Shown: piece after piece, positions 97-22,896 of the stretch
Numbering within the stretch: the first letter of the stretch is position 1
Layout: each line of letters starts with the position of its first letter
DNA from: Thoreauomyces humboldtii
Lineage: Eukaryota > Chytridiomycota > Chytridiomycetes > Spizellomycetales > Powellomycetaceae
NCBI GenBank assembly: GCA_027596035.1
Contig: JADGJA010000331.1
Location: 1 to 22,983, forward strand
Direction of reading: 5' to 3'
Length of the DNA stretch: 22,983 nucleotides
Made by a program: the position numbers and the translations under genes
The notes under the pieces: model-generated
What the model saw: only the letters and a program-made list of their open reading frames with translations
The model's database searches: none
What the model was told of the DNA's origin: nothing

Positions 97-3000
97 ATGG
101 ACCCAGTGACCGCGGCCACCGAAGACCCTTGGGAGGAGGATGAAGTTCTTGACTGGGACTGGGACTGGAGCGATCCGCAGCTGCTGGCCTCCCAGCCTCT
201 GGTTCCGGACAAAGAACCACAGGACGCCAACGTCCCGAACAGCACTTCAACGTACCTTGGCACAGACCGCATAAAGACTCTAGCAGAGATCGCTGCTGAG
301 GAAAGCATGAAGTCTCGACTCCTCATCAATCCAAATAAACCTGGGACCCAGTACATCGACAAGTCGGTGGTTCAACACATCATCTACGAGGCTTCAAAGG
401 GCTCTCCGTTCTTCCTCGCCGAGCAGCGGAGGGACGCCATCGCCACAAAGCGCGCGGACGCCCTGAAGGCTCGGGTCGAGGAATTCTCGACAATGAACTT
501 GCGTGCAGGTCGGTAACCAGAAACATGTCGATGCATCGTAGGGACACGAATTGCTCGCAGACTGACCCTAGACGAGTCGGTGTGCAGAACAGAGCCTGGT
601 CGACAGAGAAGTGTCTGTCATTCAAGCAGAATGGGATGCCACGGAGCCCCGATGCATAGCATGTGTCGACATGGTAACGTCATCTGTCTCTAACCGGCCA
701 TCCGGATCGTCGGCCTCCGAGTCTTTTGCTGACTTGTGGATGCCCCAGGATGCTTTCTACGCTTCCGTGGAGGAGCTCGATAAACCAGAGCTAAAGGACA
801 AGGTATAGACATCCTACTTCTTCCGGCTTGAACCTGGGCACGCACTCAAACGTTCTCTACGTCGGAAGCCTATGGCCGTTGGAGTGAGATTTCGGGTCAG
901 CTGAATCAATCACAGAGTGCGGGATCTGATCGTGGTGCGCACAGGGCATTGGAATGCTTTGCACTGCGAATTATGAAGGTGGGATCGACTTTGAAGCATT
1001 CTCGATGGTGAAAGGTCCATGCTGACCATTGTTTAGCCAGGTAATTCAGTCAGACGACTTCCATTCTGACCTGTTCAGCCTCCGTAGGCGAATGCTGATA
1101 CCTGACATCTATCTTCACATCAAGGAAGTACGGTGTTCGGTCAGCCATGCCTGGCTACATTGCCCTGGTTCGAACATGATGCTTGAATTTTCACATCCTT
1201 GCTTGAAAGATCATGGCTCATGTGCTTCGTCGAACAGAAACTCTGCCCAAATCTGGTGATCGTTCCTCTGAACTTCGACAAGTACACGGCCATCAGTCTC
1301 AAAGTTCGAGAAGTCTTCGCTGTACGTGTACGCGCGCGCTCCTTTTCAGTGCAGCATGAAGCTAACCGCGTGTTGCTGAAAGCTCTACGACCCACAATTC
1401 AGTGCGGGAAGCTTGGATGAAGGTAATTGCTGTCGGAACCGCAGCTAGTGAAAGGTTTGCTGACTTATAAATGCAGGATTTCTCGACCTGACTAGCTACC
1501 TGAAGTTGCACTTGTCTCAAGGACCCGAGGAAGTTGTCAAGGAGCTGCGTGCCGAGATCTTCCGGTAGGTGTCAGAGAAGTTTGCGAGTTTATTGTCTTG
1601 ATAACTGATCAGAACGCTATGGAAGTCGAACCGGCCTAACCGCTAGTGCAGGTAAACTACATACGCCTAAGCTTACTTACCCCGGTGTGACTCACGGGTA
1701 TGTTTCTTGTCCTCTTCAGGCATTGCAGGAAATAAGTGCGAACCGCCAAAGCTTGGAAAATCATATCGTTTAGTCGTTGATACTGAACTCGATCCTTTGA
1801 CGGACGATACGATAGGATGCTCGCCAAGGTAAACTTACCCAACCCCCCAACCCCCCCGCAACAGCGGGTCCTTCATATTACATGCTAACTGCCTGCTCAT
1901 TGTCTGTACCGAAGATCTGCTCAGATGTGAACAAGCCAAACGGACAGAAGTATCTCCCGCCCGATCCAGGCGTGATTGAAGCATTCTTGAAATCGCTACC
2001 TGTGCGAAAAATACCGGGAATAGGCAAAGTGAACGAGCGAAATCTGGAGGCTCTGGGTGTAATTTTGTGCGGAGATTTGGTATGGAAGACGGTTGTCACG
2101 TCTTACAGAAGCGTTTCTCATTGCTTGTTTAGTAGAAGTCGAATCTCGTCAAAATATATAAGCTCTTCTCTCCGTTATTCTTTGGCTTCTGTGTCCGAGC
2201 TGCCCTCGGGATAGGCTCTACGCATGTCGACAAGTGAGTAATCGAGGACTTTCGATCATAATTACTGACGTAGACCTGACTTCAAATATCTGCAGCCATC
2301 AGGAGCGGAAAAGTTTTGGTTGCGAGAGGTGAGAGATAAACGCTTGGAAAAGACCTGTGTTTCGGAAGCTGATGGAATGCCTTAGAACGTTTAGCGCCAT
2401 GTCTGGCAAAGCCGAAATGCATACAAAGCTGCAGGAACTGGCCGAACATCTTGCCGCTGATCTCGCCAAGGATGGCGTGAAAGGACAATGCGTCACATTG
2501 AAGCTAAAAGATACCGCGTTCCGGCTGTCCACCCGGGCTCGAACGCTTACACGCTGGGTTTCAAATGCTAGCGATTTGAAAGCCATAGCCGGTCTTTTAT
2601 TAGACGTCGAACTGGCAGCAAATCCGCAGCTGACTCTTCGTCTCATGGGTATAGCGTTGAGCAAACTTGCCAAGCGCCCTACTGACGTACCCAGCGGAAT
2701 ATCTCGTTATTTAAAACGTGCTTCATCGAATCCACCAGAGGACGCCCTTCCGCCACTCTCGCATCGGCAGCCCCTCGACTCCGGGCCACGTGCACCGGTG
2801 TCGTCTTGTCCCATATGCTCCATATCATTTGCCAGGGCTATCGACCCGCGCGCCATGGACGAGCATGTTGGCCGCTGTCTAGACGATATATCAGCATCTA
2901 CGCGTTCAGACTCAAACGCACCCGCACGAAAACGCAGCCGTCAGGACGGTACTCTCCAAAAATGGATGGTAAGACATGTCATGGGGTTTGCTGATCTGAG

Positions 3001-3160
3001 ATATCTGTCAATCTGAATGTCTTTGAAACAGCATCGTCCGCAGGTGTCAGGTGTGATGTTCCCAGTGTGCCCGATTTGCAAGGCCGCGCTATCATCTGGG
3101 GCTCTAAGCGTCGTCAATGCTCACGTGGATGCGTGTCTCGCCCGCTCCGTGTCTGAATGA
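97..3160 (+). CDS. POLK: DNA polymerase kappa (Y-family translesion polymerase), 18 exons
   Basis: This Y-family polymerase bypasses damaged bases during replication in the nucleus. My model has exons 97-508, 588-673, 749-802, 869-883, 945-978, 1037-1040, 1125-1167, 1238-1321, 1383-1422, 1477-1564, 1626-1651, 1720-1735, 1816-1828, 1915-2079, 2136-2233, 2296-2328, 2386-2968 and 3032-3160, giving 640 residues. All phases agree. Visible motifs are the kappa N-clasp (IIYEASKGSPFF), the catalytic CVDMDAFYASVEEL and SLDE acidic residues, NYEARKYGVRSAMPGYIA, LTASAGIAGNKMLAKICSD, the helix-hairpin-helix RKIPGIGKVNERNLEALG, LGIGSTHVD and the little-finger domain. Two UBZ-type zinc fingers (CPIC..HVGRC near 545-570, CPIC..HVDAC near 610-635) end the protein. 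The least certain junctions are 509-587 and 2080-2135. The start is the ATG at 97, which opens the conserved frame. Family identity is very secure. Confidence 0.93.
1037..1040 (+). other. POLK: 4-base microexon of polymerase kappa
   Basis: The bases ccag lie between an acceptor (gtttag) and a donor (gtaatt). Splicing them between the exon ending at 978 and the exon starting at 1125 completes codons for Ala and Arg in the conserved YEARKYGVRSAMPG block. Without them the frame is lost. The flanking introns are 58 and 84 bases, within the local range. Confidence 0.8.
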
Positions 3161-10508: not shown

Positions 10509-13500
10509 TCACGACGATGTTCCCTTCCCCTTGAACGTCTTTTCTTTATCCTTCTTTCCAGACTTCTTGTTCTTCTGGTCGTCCGGCTGAGGGCTTCGTA
10601 GCACGTAAAGACGGTCATGCTCACGAACGATCAGGGACGGCACCGGATTAGTGTAAACGAAGGGAAGCTCGTTCCCCAGCTTATCGCACGGCTCGCGGAG
10701 CATGGCAATGGGAATGGCTGGCTTATCGGTTGCCTCGGTGAGGGAACGGAACACATCCGCAAAGGTCTTGCCAGCAAGCTCTTTGGGTAACGGTACAAGC
10801 GCCAGTCCCGGGCTTGACGCTTGTTCTGCTGCCGCTGCGAGGTCTCCGCAGAGAGCTTTGACAATTGGCAACGTATCTCGGTTTTGGTAGATAGCAAAGA
10901 TAAAGCAGTCCAGCAGGGAGGAGAGGAGGGTTTGCCCCGCAGCGTAAACGGGTGAGTGCAGATGGTCGATGACAGCTGTGCTGCACTCCAACGCATGGAG
11001 GAAACGAATGGATTTGCGGTCCAAAATTTCGGTTATCACGGTAGTCTGAAACAAGCGACATGAATGAGTACGAGAAAGCATAAAAGACTGCGCAAGCTCA
11101 ATGCGGCTTACCTTTCTGTGAGATGGTGCGTGGCCATCGTCGTCCGAGTCGTTCGCGTTCTCGTGAAGCTGCTTAACGGGACCAACAACACCCTGCTTTT
11201 CACCATCATTGTCCTCGTTCTCGTCGTCTGTTAGAGGTCGAACGTCATTGACGCTAACTCCCGAGGAGGCCATTATCTGGTGAACCACATGAGTCGTCAT
11301 GACTGCTGCAGAATCTGCGACGCTGGCAGTCACTTCGTGCGTCTCGGCAGGGTTAGGCCCCGCACGCTTTTCACCGCCTCCGAAACTCTCCGGCTTTGAC
11401 ATCACGAGAATAGTCCGAGCGTATTTTGCTCCAGCACGCAACATGTCCGCTCGACGCCGACAGTCGCCTACGACGTAGTAGACACGCGGGAATACGGCTA
11501 AGGTATGCCGGAACTCCTCTTCAGTTGGCTCGTCCACCCCGAGGACCACAATCTGGCGCATGCCTGCACCTTGCGATGCAGATCGCATCGTGCACATGAA
11601 ACGAAACAGAGGCTGCTGCCCGGCACACACAACAATATGACCTCTGAAGTGCGTTGCTGAAGAAAGCAAGCAATCGGCTACGGTGGCCCGCGGTTTCTTG
11701 AGAAGATGGCACAGAGGAGGTGCGTCCTCCTGCGTTGCCGTATACGGGGACTCGGGTCTTCCTAGAATGGTGTCCTCCTCGGATTCCGCGATGCCGATCA
11801 AAGGATCAGCGGACCCACGGCCTCTGCTAGAATCAGTTGGGGCTTCCGTCGTGATCTCTGGTTGTTTTTCTCCTTTCTCGGTAGCCTCGGAGGACCGACG
11901 GCGGGGCTTGGCTTCGTTCGCTGCATCTCCAACGAACTCGTCATCATCGTCAGATGCGTTCTGGAGGCTATAGGTCCGCTTCTCAGCCTGCGGCCTCCCT
12001 CCGGAAACATGAGGTCGGGTACCGTCTTTGCTCGTTGAATCGGTTCGCCTTCGCTCTGCTTTGCCATCCATGGGGCGATCTTCCTCTCGTCGTTCATCCT
12101 CCGCGATTTCCTTGGCAGATTCTTGTTCGATGTCAACTGTAACATCAGGAGAGGCTTCGTCCTTGTCATACTGTCGGAGAGATCGGTCGATCTGATCCTT
12201 GCTGAATTTCTTCGAGATTCGTTTAATGTCCGAGGTGTGGTGAGCAATGTAATAGCATTGATCCTGCCTAGCCATCTTGTATGTCTTTCCTGGGTTAAGC
12301 AGCATGGTAGACGTTCCCGGCTTTCCATCCTCAGTGGGTTGCGGCTGCGGTTTCACGGCAAAGAGAACAACCTGAAACTCTACGAACAGATACCAGGAAA
12401 GCCACGCGAACGGGCGCCCGATGAAAACTTCGTTAACAGGTGCAATGTAGATCTCGTTCGCGAGGCCATCTGAGTACTGGTATTCCCAAGGTCGCTCGCA
12501 ATTGTTCGAAGGGTTCGACTGGAAAATGAGATTCAGGATTACAGTCGATGCGCCTGAACATGAGCTGTTAGTAGGAAATCACAGGGGATGCCCGAGATTC
12601 TGTCCTCACCCTTATGCAAACAGTTGTAGGCTAGCAATACTTGTTTTATCTCGTCCACGCAGACCACCGCTTCCGTCATTTGTTGGAATGCGGCGGTTTC
12701 GGGCAAAAGCACCTCGGTGTACAAAGGGATCTTGGGATTCGCGATATGGAAAGACCATGCACATAATGTAGTATGACAGTCCTCATCGAACCAGGACTTC
12801 GCACGCCTGTTGGAAAGCATGAAAGCGGCTGTGGCCCCGCGCGCCTTCATGCGTTCGAAATCCCGCTCGTCCAAACAGGCGCCTTGAAGATACGTCGTGT
12901 GGGCCTATTGTATTTTCTCGCAAGTTAGCTTCAGGGGCACGTGATCGGCGGCGATGGCAGTCAATCTATCACCTTGTAGAACGGAAGTGCCAGAAGAGAC
13001 TGCACCGCCAAAGGGGCGGCGTTAGGTCCCATAAGAACAAGGTGAATCTTGGGATCACTCTCGTTGCGCAGATCTAAAAAGCCGTTCAACAAGTCCTGCA
13101 CACGATTTGGGTCGGAGAAGTTGCCAACGAGAATGAGATGTTCCTTCGTTCCAGAAACAAAGGATTTGGATGACTCTTTGTTCAGACTATGATACCCAGA
13201 AAAATCAGCGTACACTTCGAGACCATTGTATCACAGCACTGCTCACCTCCATGTGTCCAGGAAGTCAGAAATCTGCAAAGCGGGTTAGTAGCGGTCGACC
13301 GGATACCTATTTTCCGACAGGACTTACCAGGCCAGGAATCAGACCCAACACAACAAAGATCAAAACAATGACAATCACCCGAGAGACCCAATGTGAAGGC
13401 TCAATGTCGCCGTAACCGATGGTGGACGCCGTGACCAAGGAGAAGTAGAACACATCTAAGGCCTTTGAGGCGTGTAAGACAGCGTTCCGGTGAAAGACAC

Positions 13501-14597
13501 ACCGGCGAGACTAACCGTGTAAATTTGAGAGGAGAACATCATCTCCGACCTACAATCAAAGATTTATGCTTAGTATCGTTCCGCGAAATACGGCCTCAGG
13601 GTAAATCCCGCACCATTGAAAGCAGCACATCCCGGTAAATAAGATGGCCAGAATTTGCGATAGCAATACGATAAGCTGGTGCCGAAGCGGATTGATCTGG
13701 ACGCTGTTACTGTCGGCATCCAGGTTGGCGTTGACGCTCATGGCCCGGTTGGACCTCCAGATAATGTACCAGCACCGCAGAAAATACGGCACGTACAAGA
13801 ACTGCCCTACAGTCAAGAACCCATGTTCAGCCTCTTTGCATCATCCAACCTGTCAAGGCCAGGACGACGATCGTACCATCGACCAGGAACAAGCTGACTA
13901 TCAACGGAACCGTTGTAACGAGATCAACGAGCGGATCCGTACTGAGGATCGCCCGCCTCTTCTCTCCCGTGAAAGCGATCCGTCCCAAGAGCGAGATGGC
14001 ATTGTAGAAGCCACAAGCAAGGATAACTCGGTAGAGCCAGAGAGGTCGATCGATCCAGAGCCACTGAGGACTGCGGCTGTACGGGGAGCCCACGGACATC
14101 TGCCAGATGTACATGAAGCAGAGGATCACGTCGACGAACAGATCCAGGTAGACGAAGGTAATGGCGAAGGTATGAGCGTCCGTGATCTGCTTCAGCATCC
14201 GCAGGTACGACACGGCGTGGAACCGCACATCGAGGATCCGGAACGGGGTCCCGTCTGGGTTCCCCGACTTTCGCGTGTTCGAGTGCCGGATCATGTAGTT
14301 TGACCGAACGAGCGACAGTCCGGTGACTTTATTCGTAAAGGGATGCGGTATGAGCCAACGCCAAGGTGTGGATTGCTTCCTAGCCGTGACATAGACCTCT
14401 TCCTTGCTAGCGTCCAGTCCTTCCAACGCGTCGATGCCTTGCGTGTCGGCCTGGCTGCGACCCGAGTTGTTTTGGCCGTTGGGATGTAGAGCGTTGGACG
14501 AGGCTCCGCCTCGCGGTCGATTTCGTCCTCGCTGCAGCATGATGTTCATGAGGCCCCCCACGGGGCGGCTCCTGCCGCTTTGTTCATCTTCGGACAT
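10509..14597 (-). CDS. Slo2-like potassium channel with tandem RCK domains, 9 exons
   Basis: This is a plasma-membrane or organelle K+ channel gated by ligand through cytoplasmic RCK domains. Exons 14597-13850, 13806-13614, 13549-13516, 13462-13328, 13272-13247, 13186-12973, 12904-12610, 12553-11112 and 11045-10509 join in phase to give 1207 residues. S1-S4 lie at about 140-270. S4 carries few basic residues (LYVPYFLRCWYIIWRSNRAM), as in Slo2. The pore filter is TIGYGD (about 339-344). RCK1 begins near 380 (EHLILVGNFSDPNRVQDLL; LQGACLDERDFERMKA; TEAVVCVDEIKQVLLAYNCL; LLNPGKTYKM). A long acidic, Ser/Glu-rich linker (about 640-830) precedes RCK2 (GHIVVCAGQQPLFRFM; VYYVVGDCRRRADMLRAG; HSPVYAAGQTLLSSLLD). 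No S0 helix or calcium bowl is visible, so Slo2 (KCNT) fits better than BK. The activating ion is unknown. The 11111-11046 intron is 66 bases and in frame. Confidence 0.88.
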
Positions 14598-14713
14598 ATC
14601 AGGTAGGGATACCGCGAGTTCTGACGATTGCGAAAAACCGAGTAGGAGAGACCAAGGAGGGAGAAAACAGGTCGAGAGGAGACAAGAGAAGCCAGCACCC
14701 CAGCGTCTAGCAT

Positions 14714-14729
14714 AGAGAGAGAGAGAGAG
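14714..14729. repeat. (AG)n microsatellite
   Basis: Eight AG dinucleotide units are seen directly, in the upstream region of the channel gene. Confidence 0.8.
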
Positions 14730-14997
14730 TTGGAGAAGACTTGGAAGAGAAGAGGCCTCCCTGGCGCAGGGAACGAAAAATTCCCAGGCAGATGGCCCAC
14801 ACGAGCACACGTTCGAGCACCTTCACGGTCCTGACGTCATCTTTTCCCGCCCTGACCGAGCGCTCCAGAAACCAGGGACGTGAAGAGCATAAAAGGCGTA
14901 TCGCCACAACCGAAAAGATCCCGACAAATTGGTAGCCGAAAAACAGTAGAGTGGCTGTGAGGGCCACTTGGCATTTTTGGAGGACAAACCCTCCCGT

Positions 14998-16335: not shown

Positions 16336-16571
16336 AAGCACCCCCGTCCTGTACAGAACTCGAGGATATCCTCAACGTTGGTTTCCAATAATTTGCATAT
16401 CCACTCGCTAAATACCTGTCTACCTCCGATGTCTCACCGCTGATAAAGATGCCGTCAGTCATGTGACTTGCTCTAGTAGTTTGTGGCGTCAACCCTGCCG
16501 GGCGCACCAAATTTTTGTTTCCAGTGATTTGCTTTGCAGGTTGACTGTCCATAGGTGACTGGTATTCTAGA
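16336..16571. other. Convergent intergenic spacer
   Basis: These 236 bases lie between the stops of the FKBP gene (+) and the hexokinase-like gene (-). They presumably hold both 3' ends. No gene is seen. Confidence 0.5.
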
Positions 16572-17654
16572 CTAAACCACAACCTCTTCCGACGCCGAGT
16601 CCGCGAGCGCGGCGATTAGGGCGGCCCCTTGGCCCGATCCATCCCGAGCTGGCGTGAAGATGTATAGGTATTGGTTACGTGAAGAGGCATGTGCAAAACC
16701 CGTACTTACCTTGAGCAAGAACGATGCTTTCGGAACTGACCCCGAGCAATTCGCGGAGCCCATCCTGCATCCTCGTTCTGAAATGCGGGTAGTGTTCAAA
16801 AACCGACCCGTCGACAGCGACCGAGCATCCTGACAACTTGTTTGTCTTTGTGACGACCGAGGCAACACCGACCGCTGCGAGACGTGCCGCGCGTGTCCCG
16901 ATGAGCTCGCATACTCGCTTAACCAAGCGACGGTCACTGAGGGTAGTCTTCTTTACGCCAAACAGATCCTCCAGCACGGAACGAACGTCCATGAGTTCGA
17001 TACTATGGTCGCGCTCGATCCTTGACATCAAGGCGGTATCGAACGAGTGCTCAACCTCCAGCGACTCGCATGAGCGGCCAGCGACGAGGTTGCCGGTGGC
17101 AATGAGGTCAACCATGATATACCGAACCAATTCACCGAGGGCCAATGTTGGCCACCTATCTTTCCCCCCTTCCACAATGCCCACATCCTAGTAGCGATAT
17201 TTTTCATGGGATCCTGCACTATTGCATAGGATAAAGAGTGTACCTGGCCCTTGCCCTGAAGCGAAACCTCGCAGACGCGGAAGTTCGATCCCCCAAGATC
17301 AAGCGCCAAGTACGTGCCGACCTCCTCTCCAGTGGGCCGCCGGACTACAAAGGAGGGGATCGTCTTCAACGTGGTTCCATCGCGCTTTAGGCCTCTACGC
17401 AATGAAATCAGTTTTAGCCTCCGCGCAGGAAGGCTTTGACCAGTAGTATGTAACATAGCAGTAGAGAGCTGGAACTCTCTCTCAAGCTTCTGCGTCACTG
17501 TTTCGACTTGTTTGCGGGAGGAAAGAGCATTGTCGCTGACGGGGGCAGAGGTAAAGGTCGGTTTCAGACCGCCTACACTGAGCACAGAATGTAGAAACGA
17601 GACAGCGGCGCTGACGGCGATTCCTGTCGTAAGAGCAAACACGAAGAGAGACAA
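16572..17654 (-). CDS. Hexokinase-like protein missing the central catalytic region (possible pseudogene or fusion part)
   Basis: Both ends of a hexokinase are clear: PTGEEVGTYLALDLGGSNFRVCEV (phosphate-1 loop) on one side, and LGELVRYIMVDL, SFDTALMSRIERD, IGTRAARLAAVGVASVV, CSVAVDGSVFEHYPHF and DGSGQGAALIAAL on the other. Coding blocks 17654-17244, 17187-16710 and 16648-16572 join in phase (about 321 residues, against 450-500 for normal enzymes). Around 190 residues are absent between Gln of LQGKGQ and LGELVR. These include the sugar-binding LGFTFSFP, the catalytic-Asp NDTVGT loop and the GTGTN and EWGAFG segments. Phosphorylation of hexose is therefore not expected. The N-terminus has a hydrophobic segment (LSLFVFALTTGIAVSAAVSFL). 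No in-frame ATG opens the frame, which runs back to a TAG near 17742; the first ATG is at 17456. A 60-base intron (from 17455) is a possible extra splice. Confidence 0.7.
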
Positions 17655-17722: not shown

Positions 17723-20405
17723 CTATGCGTCGGTGGTTGGGCTAAGGCTGGTTTGCCCTCCAGACGCCCTGCTTACCAGCAGGAATGCGCCGTTATTGGG
17801 GTCTCGGCAGCCGACAATCACGCGCCGCGAGGCCAAGAAGCGAAGTGCACCAGGAGCGGTGTTTTTGGCGAATCTGCCACAGTCCTCATCGTAGTCGTTT
17901 CCTCGTAGCTTATCCAACGACTCGAGCAGCGTGTAAACCGACTCAGTGATCCACAGAGCTTGAGGCGAGAAATACCACGAGAAGCCGCCGCCCCCGAGAT
18001 GCCCGTAGAAATGCATGCAGAGGATCAAAGCTGAGCTTACAGCGCCAAGATAGAGGATAGCGTTACAAGCGACATTGGTGTTGAGCTTGGCGAGAAGGAC
18101 ATTGGTTGTGGCCCTTGTTATGGAAGTGGGGTCGTAATCGAAAACATCACTCTGTTCCACATACGCGGCAAGATATAGCGTGCTGAGCCGTGCAAGAGCC
18201 TGTAGATGATCAGAATTAGTATCAATCCAGAAGAGTTCGCAGTTAGACGCGTCACTAACGGATGTGACAGAGAAGAGATCAGGAATGGTGTAGCTTGAGC
18301 CAGCGCCGGACACCATCCCGGTCAAGACCGCGAAGCCTGGGACTGAAGTGGAACTTGGGGCGCATCTAAGTGCCGTTTGAAAAGGCGTAAGCTGGGTACC
18401 GCAATCCTCATTGCATAAGATTAGACTCACGGCATCAGGTCACAGGTCACCATCTGCAAAGCCTGCAGCAGGAAATGTGCGGTGCCATACCCCGAGGTTC
18501 CCCCACCAAATCCACTGTCAGCCAAGCTCATATTGAAAAGCTGCCGATGCCCAATGCGCTCAGCCGACAACAAGGTGGCGACACGGCTAGGTGATTTGCG
18601 GTATGCGGAAACAAGTCGATTAGCCTTTGCATTTGAAGGATTCGAGAGTACTAAGGTATATAAACCTCGGCTCCGTGGAGTTGATGAAAACCTCCGCGTT
18701 CGTCAGTCCAATATTGACTTGTATCTTGCAAAGGGCAAAGCTGACGTTGCGGAAGGTTCCATTGTCTAAGGGGGCCTGCAGCGTCGTGAAGTTGCGGATT
18801 GGAGCAGCGAAATTGTACCCCGTCATTGCCAAATACATTGCTCCATCAGCGCCGATGTATGGCTCATAGTCGTTAAGGCCTGTCCCCATAGTCAACACCT
18901 GCATTGTTGGCGTCGTAAAGTCACTTCTTCCCACAAAGTACATGTAGGCGGCGTTGCTGATCTCATTGCCGTCCTCGAACTCGACGGTGACAGTGGCCCC
19001 GTCCGCCCCCCCACCGGTCCAGTCGACGAATGTGTTTTGAAGAGGCAACGGCCCACATGACGCCGTAACACCGACTGTTGACATAGCGCCAGTGTAGGTG
19101 TCTCCAGGAGTCACGGAAACCCAGGTAGGGTCGACCTCCGTAGTCTCTTGAATATTGGGAAGCGTGACCGAGGACACGACAATGTCCGAGCAAGCCAACT
19201 GCCAGCCGATCGGAGCGTCAGGACCGGCACACTTTGTCTCCGGCGGAACCAAGATTGCGCTTAACGAAAGAGGATCATAAAGTCTCCCTGCAAGCTTCGA
19301 GTCAGAACAAGTTCATCCCTCATTCCTTCTTGAGAATCAGAGCTCACCCAGTTGAAGCACTGCTGTTAAAGCCTCTTCGTAGGCATCGTCCGCGTCATAC
19401 CTATGGGAAAGAAGGTGAGCTCTGAGTTCTTTTGTAAGAATGAAGGGTACATGACATACTGTGAGGTGACTTGAATTTGCATCGGCCCATACGCAGGCAT
19501 GTGGCCGGCGGCTCGGAGCGATGGAAATGGGGACGAAAGGTAAAGCGAACCGATACTTCCTAGTTGATAACGTTCGTTAACAAGAATTCAGTTCCTTGAC
19601 GCAACTGCTTCGGGCGCACCAATGACGAAGGCTTCCGCAATATAAAGGGTAAGAAGGAGAAAGGTAACTGGTCCCATACGCCAATGTGCGTCTTCGATGC
19701 CGCGGTAGTTGTTGCTAGTGAAGACCTCTCTTAGACCGGGCAATCGGGCTGCCATCCTCAACTGACAGGTACCTATATATGGTGCTCCAGGCCGTGACCA
19801 TTTCTCGCTGAGTCATGCCGCGATGGGACAATCGCCAAGCAAACAAAGCCTGGCAAAGTCGGCGACCCAATTCGATAGGAGCAAAGATGGCGATCTGAAC
19901 GGTGCATCCCACAACGAGCCCAGCGATATTTTCAAAGATCCCTCCAGGTGGAAACTTGATCCAGGAGCTCTGTCCCACAACCAACGCGGCGAGGCATCTG
20001 AGACAGAAGCGTAAGAAGCGTGCTCAACAAAGCTAACACATACGATGTGGACTCTCACAGAAAGAGCATCACGAGAATCTTCAATACAAAGAAAATTCGC
20101 CAGCCCTCTCCCGCACTTTCCGGGATGGTGACTACGTCGTTGTCCAAATTCTTCGTTTTCGTGTCCTGGCCGGTAGATGGCAAGTACGGATCTTCCTCCT
20201 CCGTCTCCACCTCGTGGAGAAGTCTTGATTTTTCGTGCGGTTTTTGAGTGGGCCTGCCATCATTGATCTCTCGTCTGTTCAAGGTGCCGCTTTTGTGGAC
20301 ATGTAAAGAGAGCTCGGCGTCCGTCACATCCAAGTCGTTGACACTGGCTGATCGTTTGATGCTGATACTTTGATTGCTTCTGTGCTGCGCCTTTCCAGGA
20401 TCCAT
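17723..20405 (-). CDS. Unrecognised multi-pass membrane protein with large glycosylated ectodomain, 8 exons
   Basis: I do not recognise the family; the layout loosely recalls fungal DUF3176-type proteins, at low confidence. Exons 20405-20059, 19997-19773, 19714-19620, 19559-19460, 19400-19348, 19287-18692, 18624-18431 and 18365-17723 join in phase for 750 residues. Introns are 52-67 bases where measured and mostly have GTGAG/GTATG-like donors. A hydrophilic, Ser-rich cytosolic N-terminus (1-100; SISIKRSASVNDLD) is followed by TM1 (about 101-123), TM2 (134-157) and TM3 (204-232, GPVTFLLLTLYIAEAFVIG). A domain of about 390 residues follows, with several N-glycosylation sequons (NFT, NGT, NVS, NMS) and paired cysteines, then TM4 (about 632-655) and a tail. 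An alternative last splice (donor at 17776) would replace the final 18 residues. The coding strand choice rests on phase agreement at seven introns. Confidence 0.65.
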
Positions 20406-20887: not shown

Positions 20888-22896
20888 ATGGACAATGCGA
20901 ACAATAGCAGCACTCAGGAGAGACTACGGACGCTCATTGAGGACGGATTAGAGCTGGAAGGTGCTTAGTTTTTCGATCTGTGGTCATACCGTACGCAACA
21001 AAGCAAAGGGGTTGACGGCGGGTCTTGCAGAAATCGACCTCAACCTTTTCCGAAGCAGACATCTATGGCTTCCCGCGGGAGCGCGTGGTGTCTTCGGTAG
21101 GTTATACGCTTGGAGTACCCAGAAGGAAAGGCGGAAAATGCACCCGATCCACCGTCCTAAACGCGATCTGATTCTTTGACAGGCGGGCAAGTTGTGGGGC
21201 TTGCACTCTCCGCGGCCACAAAGACCGTCGACGCGAAGTATCGTGTGCATGTGCGTGTACTCCTATGTGGGCAAAGCAGTTGCCACGAAGGACGTGTCTT
21301 GAGCTGACTTCTCACATTCTTTATAGTCATTACACTGCTACTTTCTGCTTCCCGGAGACAACACGATTCCTATTATCTACCGGGTTCAACGCAATCGCGA
21401 TGGCAAATCTTACGTTACTCGCACCGTCATGGCTGAACAACGTGGAAAGTCTATCTTTGTCCTTACCTGCTCCTTTCAGTCGGGAGAACATTCTCTTCTC
21501 GAACATCAGGTACCGTAACATAGCTGGTTTGTGTTGGCTTCCGACACGTCATGACCTGTCCGAAGTACCCCATGCCCGATGTCCTTCCGCCAGAGCAGCT
21601 CAAGAGCACGGAAGAGAAGTTGCAGCGTAAGGAGTCAATCATTAAAGTAATCTTACCGCCTTTACGTACTTTGTTCATGACACTCTGCGTCACTTTCTGC
21701 CAATAGATATGCTGGAGCATCCTCGGGTTGGCGCGAATCCGAAGTACCGCCAGCAGTTTCAAATGCGCCTTCAGGACGTAAGTGGCGCAACCATTCATCT
21801 TCCGAATCAAGCTTACGTCTTCTATGCAGCCCATTCCAATTGACATCCGGGACTGCCATGGGTTCCAAAGGGCTCGCGACCTTTTGTGCCCAACGAAGAA
21901 AGAACCGAAGCAGTACCTCTGGATGCGAGCCAAGGGCAAATTGCCGGACGATCCTGCCTTTCACAACGTGAGAGCACGATACGCAGCGAGGCGTGAAGCT
22001 TTTGTGGAGATGGCGGTTTCTAATCGTATTTCTCCCTTCAAAATGGCGTTTTAGTGCGTGGCTGCATATTGCTCAGATGTAAGCGAGCCTGCTCATCATT
22101 ACCGAGTCTGACTTGCGCTTCGTCTGACCATCTGCCGGCATAAAAATAGCACTATCTCTTGACAACCAGTCTGCTAGCGCACGGAATTACTGGATTCTCC
22201 AATCCTCGCCTAAGCATGCTGGCTAGTCTTGATCATTCGGTGGTAATCATTGCTGCGGGGCACACACCATAGCTCGCATCTGTCTGACGCATCGCTTACT
22301 GCTTTCGACTCTGCAGTGGTTCCATGCTCCCTTCCGAGCAGACGAGTGGCTCCTGTACGAGATGGAGGTAACCGCCAAAGTCCCGGGACCCCACCCAGTA
22401 GACGATACAAGTATCAACTTACTCATTCACGCAGAGCTCCCGAACGATCGCCGGACGAGGTCTCTGTTTCGGCAGGATTTTCACGCGGGACGGGCGTCTT
22501 GTGGTATCAACGGCGCAGGAAGGTGTCGTGCGGGCCGAGTATCGCAGCGTCGAGAGCATTCCGAAGCAAATCGACGGCAAGGCCGGTGCATCGCCAAGCT
22601 CCCTCGGGACTTCGGCAGCCGGTTACATGGTCGATGACAAGAATCCAGCTGGCGGAGGTCGAAATGCCGGCAACAATGGGAAGAAGGGAGCGGAAGCCGC
22701 CGGTTATATGGTGGACGACAAGACTCCATCTGGCGGAGATCGAAAGGCCGACAATGATGGACAGAAGGGAGCGGACGCCGCCGGCTACATGGTCGATGAC
22801 AACACTCCGGCTGGCGGAAATCGAATGGCCCACGATGGCGGACAAGAGGGAGCAGCCGCCGCCGGCTATATGGTGGTTACGAAGCCCAAGCTTTGA
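20888..22896 (+). CDS. ACOT8: Acyl-CoA thioesterase of the ACOT8/TesB family with tandem-repeat C-terminal extension, 11 exons
   Basis: This double-hotdog enzyme hydrolyses acyl-CoA to free acid and CoA; eukaryotic members work in peroxisomes. Exons 20888-20960, 21031-21096, 21183-21250, 21327-21509, 21566-21626, 21707-21777, 21830-21967, 22055-22078, 22150-22239, 22317-22367 and 22435-22896 join in phase for 428 residues (human ACOT8 has about 320). Motifs are RGVFGGQVVGLALSAATKTV, SLHCYFLLPGDN, PIIYRVQRNRDGKSYVTRTV, MPDVLPPE, LLAHGITGF, SLDHSWFHAPFRADEWLLYEME and STAQEGVVRAEYRS. The TesB-type triad is present as Asp228, Ser254 and Gln303. After about residue 312 the family usually ends, but here about 115 residues follow: a linker, three 27-residue repeats and a partial one. 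The last residues are PKL, a non-canonical PTS1-like signal. The start is the ATG at 20888, in good context. Confidence 0.92.
22615..22875 (+). repeat. Three 81-base in-frame tandem repeats plus a partial unit
   Basis: Units start at 22615, 22696, 22777 and 22858, spaced exactly 81 bases. Each encodes AAGYMVDD[KN][NTK]P[AS]GG followed by a charged Asn/Asp/Gly/Lys stretch and GA. The fourth stops after AAGYMV and runs into TKPKL and the stop. The repeat sits inside the last exon of the thioesterase gene. Confidence 0.95.

Follow-up and report, generated by a model that had tools for sequence, protein, structure and literature searches.

Exons of a single base are known in plants, as described in the available portions of two papers (PMC4674806; PMC8831610). 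For the single-nucleotide exon of Arabidopsis APC11, the authors find intron definition with successive removal of the introns more plausible, to judge from the part of the text available (PMC4674806), and the accessible sections of the second paper describe competition between the two introns that flank plant microexons (PMC8831610). In fungi, the P450 genes of the white-rot basidiomycete Phanerochaete chrysosporium are dense in small introns (45-55 bp) and contain very small exons, the shortest being 6 bp (given as 2 aa) in the part of the report available (PMC1184071). A microexon has also been reported in Xlr2 of Trichoderma virens, and the accessible text of that paper cites six earlier works on fungal microexons, which by its account were tested in S. 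pombe (PMC11121469). Within the titles and opening lines of abstracts in the literature on tiny exons, we found no exon below 6 nt in a fungal nuclear gene, the fungal references cited by the Trichoderma paper lying outside this comparison; nor, within the same titles and opening lines, did we find any work on chytrid microexons.

Here, we describe a candidate exon of four bases, CCAG, in the DNA polymerase kappa gene of the chytrid Thoreauomyces humboldtii. Like the P450 genes, this gene is fungal and intron-dense, with small introns and very small exons, and its shortest exon would measure four bases against the six reported there. From the genomic sequence, we consider it highly probable (about 0.88) that positions 1037-1040 are a genuine, constitutive four-base coding exon of polymerase kappa, lying between two U2-type introns.

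The polymerase kappa gene and its surroundings

The window, by which we mean the whole 22,983-nt stretch of DNA that was analysed, is contig C259 in its entirety; the genome searched comprises 20,668,376 bases in 823 contigs. On the plus strand of the window, 97..3160 (stop included) holds the coding sequence of DNA polymerase kappa, which we modelled as 18 exons. When joined, these exons encode 639 residues without interruption, closed by a single stop. Intron lengths range over 54-86 nt (mean 67), the 17 introns being set within 1,920 nt of coding sequence. As we placed the exon borders by hand, with the GT-AG rule and conserved protein residues as guides, the GT-AG ends of all introns (17/17) are partly true by construction; the stop-free read-through and the match to the family are not.

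The spliced product carries the IMS (PF00817), IMS_HHH (PF11798) and C-terminal little-finger IMS_C (PF11799) domains, all above cut-off and in the order found in Y-family polymerase kappa. The best 8 of the 60 distinct solved sequences listed (80 matched) are polymerase kappa, with E-values of 2.5e-98 or better, and the next is a polymerase IV of the E. coli type at 3.3e-59, so the solved relatives nearest to the product are kappa rather than eta, iota or Rev1. Among the matches listed, the best homologue is the polymerase kappa of Powellomyces hirtus (Spizellomycetales, Chytridiomycota), with 56% identity over 93%, and the nearest polymerase kappas are those of P. hirtus, Geranomyces variabilis and Spizellomyces punctatus, all of them Spizellomycetales chytrids. 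The top identity among the best 120 of 7,554 homologues (E 0.001 or better) is 57%, so that none of these 120 appears to be a model deposited for the gene itself. A six-frame search of the genome with PF00817 listed four other places, on three contigs, and left the polymerase kappa locus unlisted, because the gene is so finely cut by introns.

Besides CCAG, the gene model contains three tiny exons on the plus strand: exon 4 (869..883, 15 nt, encoding PMAVG), exon 12 (1720..1735, 16 nt) and exon 13 (1816..1828, 13 nt, encoding MLAK after a split Lys codon). When 17 introns are placed at random in 1,920 nt, 44% of trials yield an internal exon no longer than 4 nt, and four or more exons of 16 nt or less (those observed have 4, 13, 15 and 16) turn up in 14%. 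A tiny exon is therefore to be expected at this intron density. An earlier, sequence-only reading of the locus had stressed how rare such short exons are; because the gene is so intron-dense, they are less exceptional here than that reading implied. Provided that tiny exons are tolerated, an exon such as CCAG seems to follow from the high density of introns, and the informative part is that the tolerance seems real.

Elsewhere in the window, a hexokinase-like gene lies on the minus strand at 16570-17654. Its N-terminal half matches positions 3-99 of 201 of PF00349 (at 17196-17492) and, after a short gap, its C-terminal half matches positions 82-224 of 242 of PF03727 (at 16720-17139), so that the enzyme lacks its middle part. 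The genome has two fuller hexokinase loci, on contigs C596 and C51. The lack of the middle could reflect a deletion, a non-catalytic paralogue or an assembly fault. At 22618-22874, an 81-bp repeat in 3.2 copies (27 residues, AAGYMVDDK...) lies at the 3' end of a gene that we take to resemble acyl-CoA thioesterase. A minus-strand open frame at 10512-12356 has a slowpoke-like RCK domain (PF22614) and is probably part of a potassium channel gene, and another, at 13830-14810, gave no Pfam match. Within 17723-20405, also on the minus strand, three open frames (17726-18430, 18623-19252 and 20058-20405) gave no Pfam match at E 0.01 and may be parts of one large gene.

A candidate four-base exon at the nucleotide-binding site

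Exon 5 (945..978, 34 nt) encodes GIGMLCTANYE and the first base of an Ala codon, and ends in GAAG. It is followed by intron 5 (979..1036; 58 nt, GT-AG, phase 1), which ends in TTTAG, by the four bases CCAG of exon 6 (1037..1040) and by intron 6 (1041..1124; 84 nt, GT-AG, phase 2, within an Arg codon), which begins with GTAATT. Exon 7 (1125..1167, 43 nt) supplies the third base of the Arg codon and KYGVRSAMPGYIAL; its letters from 1125 are GAAGTACGG, opening G AAG TAC. These letters and coordinates are exactly those given by the sequence-only reading, which had also noticed that two codons are split over the junctions. With splice junctions marked by slashes, the product reads GAA G/CC AG/G AAG TAC, or Glu-Ala-Arg-Lys-Tyr, in which CCAG contributes bases 2-3 of Ala201 and bases 1-2 of Arg202. 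With 4 nt between complete splice sites, this candidate internal exon lies below the limits of 15 or 30 nt that define microexons by size.

The same reading had called the surrounding block nearly invariant. Consistent with this, our alignment of the 120 listed homologues shows Ala retained in 117 of them and Arg in 118; P0006 and P0033 depart at both residues, and P0007 at Ala only. Counted along the printed chain of the alignment, Arg202 aligns with Arg144 of human polymerase kappa, a residue reported, from two published structures, to make bonds with the incoming nucleotide's triphosphate. CCAG appears to complete an almost invariant part of the polymerase kappa nucleotide-binding site.

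We listed all one- and two-intron GT-AG structures within 945-1167 that have introns of at least 40 nt, stay in frame and are free of stops. There are 14 of these, 3 with one intron and 11 with two, and the conserved block is kept only by the one that includes the CCAG exon; none of the 3 single canonical introns keeps it, and none of the 10 remaining two-intron structures does. That CCAG is the sole GT-AG route to YEARKYGVRSAMPG, and that both introns beside it resemble the gene's other introns in length, donor and branch-site-like motif, supports the four-base exon. To judge these signals, we took as a sample 110 introns identified, without recourse to homology, in 220 kb of the same genome; the search for them started from matrices of the gene's other 15 introns, and they were selected on donor, acceptor and coding scores. 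The donors of introns 5 and 6 fall at the 67th and 65th percentile of this sample. A CTRAY motif lies near the 3' end of both flanking introns (CTGAC in intron 5, its A 11 nt before the last base), and is present in 12 of the 17 polymerase kappa introns and in 38 of the 110 sampled introns, versus 14% in shuffles. The acceptor before CCAG is at the 1st percentile of the 110, and 10 of the gene's 17 acceptors are at or under the 1st percentile; since strong acceptors were among the grounds for selecting the sample, we disregard the acceptor score.

As a chance control, we subjected the 146 nt between exons 5 and 7 (979-1124) to 20,000 dinucleotide shuffles and searched the results for the pattern AG-CN[A/C]G-GT. 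An equivalent four-base exon encoding Ala-Arg, with both introns at least 50 nt long, arose in 34 of the 20,000 shuffles, and at an intron minimum of 40 nt in 57 of 20,000. At the 50-nt minimum, it was accompanied by a CTRAY branch site in 4/20,000, and by both CTRAY and a donor of CAG or AAG followed by GTR, in 0/20,000. The CCAG arrangement is above chance level.

The sequence-only reading had claimed that the block can only be rebuilt with CCAG. This holds among GT-AG structures and fails outside them, as a single non-canonical excision, 979-1120, also rebuilds it, and is the only one to do so among single excisions of at least 30 nt with any borders. Such an intron would have GT-AT ends and leave the CAAG before 1125 exonic, giving an identical protein (G/CA AGG AAG) without the need for a tiny exon; the mRNA would differ from that of the CCAG model at exactly one base, GCA versus GCC. 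In a variant of this explanation, a base error in the contig at 1120 masks a normal acceptor. We consider either form unlikely. U2 introns with GT-AT ends are extremely rare, GT-AG introns suffice for reading all the rest of the gene, and an error exactly at 1120 has a low prior. The rescue of the block by this excision is itself a cheap coincidence: the AG at 1123-1124 gives the AG of the Arg codon free, and one more base, a C, would have to be right by chance (about 1 in 4). By contrast, the arrangement CTGAC...TTTAG/CCAG/GTAATT would become an accident, of the kind that only the 4 branch-site-bearing shuffles in 20,000 reproduced. Nor does a stwintron account for the locus, as 979-1120, the sole block-keeping single excision, ends in AT and by reasoning fits no nested GT-AG pair.

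If one instead requires a canonical intron and no tiny exon, 1008-1128 is in frame, GT-AG and stop-free, and its donor ranks at the 31st percentile of the sample. It would lengthen exon 5 and give NYEGGIDFEAFSMYGVR, in which ten other residues replace ARK. This intron extends the conserved block by seven residues and drops the very Ala and Arg that nearly all of the 120 homologues keep (117 and 118), including the dNTP-binding Arg, and the loss of these two residues makes the model highly improbable. Its acceptor at 1128 scores 1.6 bits, under all 110 sampled acceptors, although this measure is weak given that the sample was chosen partly by acceptor.

Proposed splicing and intron history

The CCAG exon would arise from a pair of ordinary, short introns of the U2 type, 58 and 84 nt long, that lie four bases apart. 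We propose that they are recognized across the introns (intron definition), which fits with the short and uniform introns of polymerase kappa, and that introns 5 and 6 are removed successively, because two spliceosomes could hardly share four bases. Whichever intron leaves first, CCAG would supply the CAG of the donor CAG/GTAATT. Because 4 is not a multiple of three, skipping CCAG shifts the frame and inclusion should be constitutive. In translation, skipping leads to a stop after 214 aa, retention of intron 5 to one after 215 and retention of intron 6 to one after 202. If these three truncations were put to use, skipping of the microexon or retention of an intron could serve, in addition to the main reading, as a regulated off-switch for polymerase kappa dose. 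We think this quite unlikely, as any frame-breaking exon would act alike and nothing here indicates regulation or conservation.

The models deposited for relatives bear on the history of the two introns. In Rhizophlyctis rosea (P0007), the protein is garbled at the same place. Upstream of RKFGVR, the deposited model seems to be in the wrong frame within the block and to retain an intron of ~59 nt. Read one base over (+1 frame), this stretch can encode the block at 32 of 35 residues, compared with a maximum of 14 of 35 among 300 shuffled targets. Worked out by hand, its codons require the exon to finish with CAT G[C/T]C AG, followed by GT, and a read-through ending in Val-Arg allows ...AG/R AAR TTY. 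Reasoning by hand from the protein, we infer that R. rosea has a ~59-nt intron at the same phase-2 site in the Arg codon, with an uninterrupted Ala codon. As R. rosea appears to have the downstream phase-2 intron, this suggests that intron 6 is the older of the two. The phase-1 intron 5, likely an additional intron and absent from the reconstructed R. rosea gene, would then have been gained in this lineage at a site four bases upstream, which left CCAG stranded; alternatively, R. rosea would have lost it.

We considered a multi-copy (introner-like) origin of the extra intron and set it aside: a genome search with 884-1321 returned its own locus and nothing else, although with so long a query a lone 58-nt copy could be missed. 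Comparison of introns 5 and 6 with the other introns of the gene gave nothing convincing, the best similarity being 22 for intron 5 and 21 for intron 6, against shuffled 95% points of 21 and 22.

Two further models depart from the family at the block. In P0006 (Spizellomyces 'palustris'), the conserved block is missing altogether, and its garbled stretch, read by eye as a shifted frame of the block, gave no fit. P0033 (Paraphysoderma sedebokerense) has Gly-Ser at the place of Ala-Arg, which 117-118 of 120 homologues have, and this could have come about if a splice site within these two codons was misplaced. We offer both departures as leads only. That some deposited chytrid models (P0006, P0007) lose or garble conserved active-site residues here is an annotation hazard, as it may be misread as loss of function.

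A broader view is possible and we put it forward tentatively, as somewhat doubtful. CCAG may be shorter than any fungal coding exon described so far, formed through the gain of an intron at a distance of four bases from an older one, and may exemplify a hidden class of exons of at most ~6 nt among intron-dense zoosporic fungi, missed by standard annotation and sometimes located at catalytic residues. P0006, P0007 and P0033 would then be traces of intron crowding.

Comparison with known tiny exons

A catalytic-site Arg carried on a four-base exon, in an early-diverging fungus with short introns, would offer a clean natural test of minimal exon size under intron recognition. Nothing is overturned by it, since plants already have one-base exons and a gene this rich in introns should contain tiny ones. 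CCAG is probably real, and a very short addition to the known class of tiny exons.

Within that class, the Arabidopsis APC11 exon (PMC4674806) and the plant microexons of 15 nt or less (PMC8831610) are likewise tiny, some of them not a multiple of three and many of them unannotated, in the parts of those papers available. They were proven by constructs, RT-PCR or RNA-seq, according to the same parts, whereas CCAG has four bases, belongs to a fungus and is known from sequence alone. The regulated neural microexons of animals are in-frame insertions whose inclusion and skipping both keep the frame; CCAG, at 4 nt, is frame-breaking, and its skipping brings the early stop described above, after residue 214. 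The Xlr2 exon of Trichoderma virens is also a fungal microexon, and its inclusion depends on glucose in the portion of the report available, whereas the inclusion of CCAG should be constitutive (PMC11121469). A parallel may also be drawn with stwintrons, in which two fungal introns are likewise removed consecutively from nearly the same place, as the accessible texts describe (PMC12403724; PMC6616335). In a stwintron, an internal intron breaks the donor, branch site or acceptor of an external one and leaves no exon, whereas here four coding bases would stand between two complete introns.
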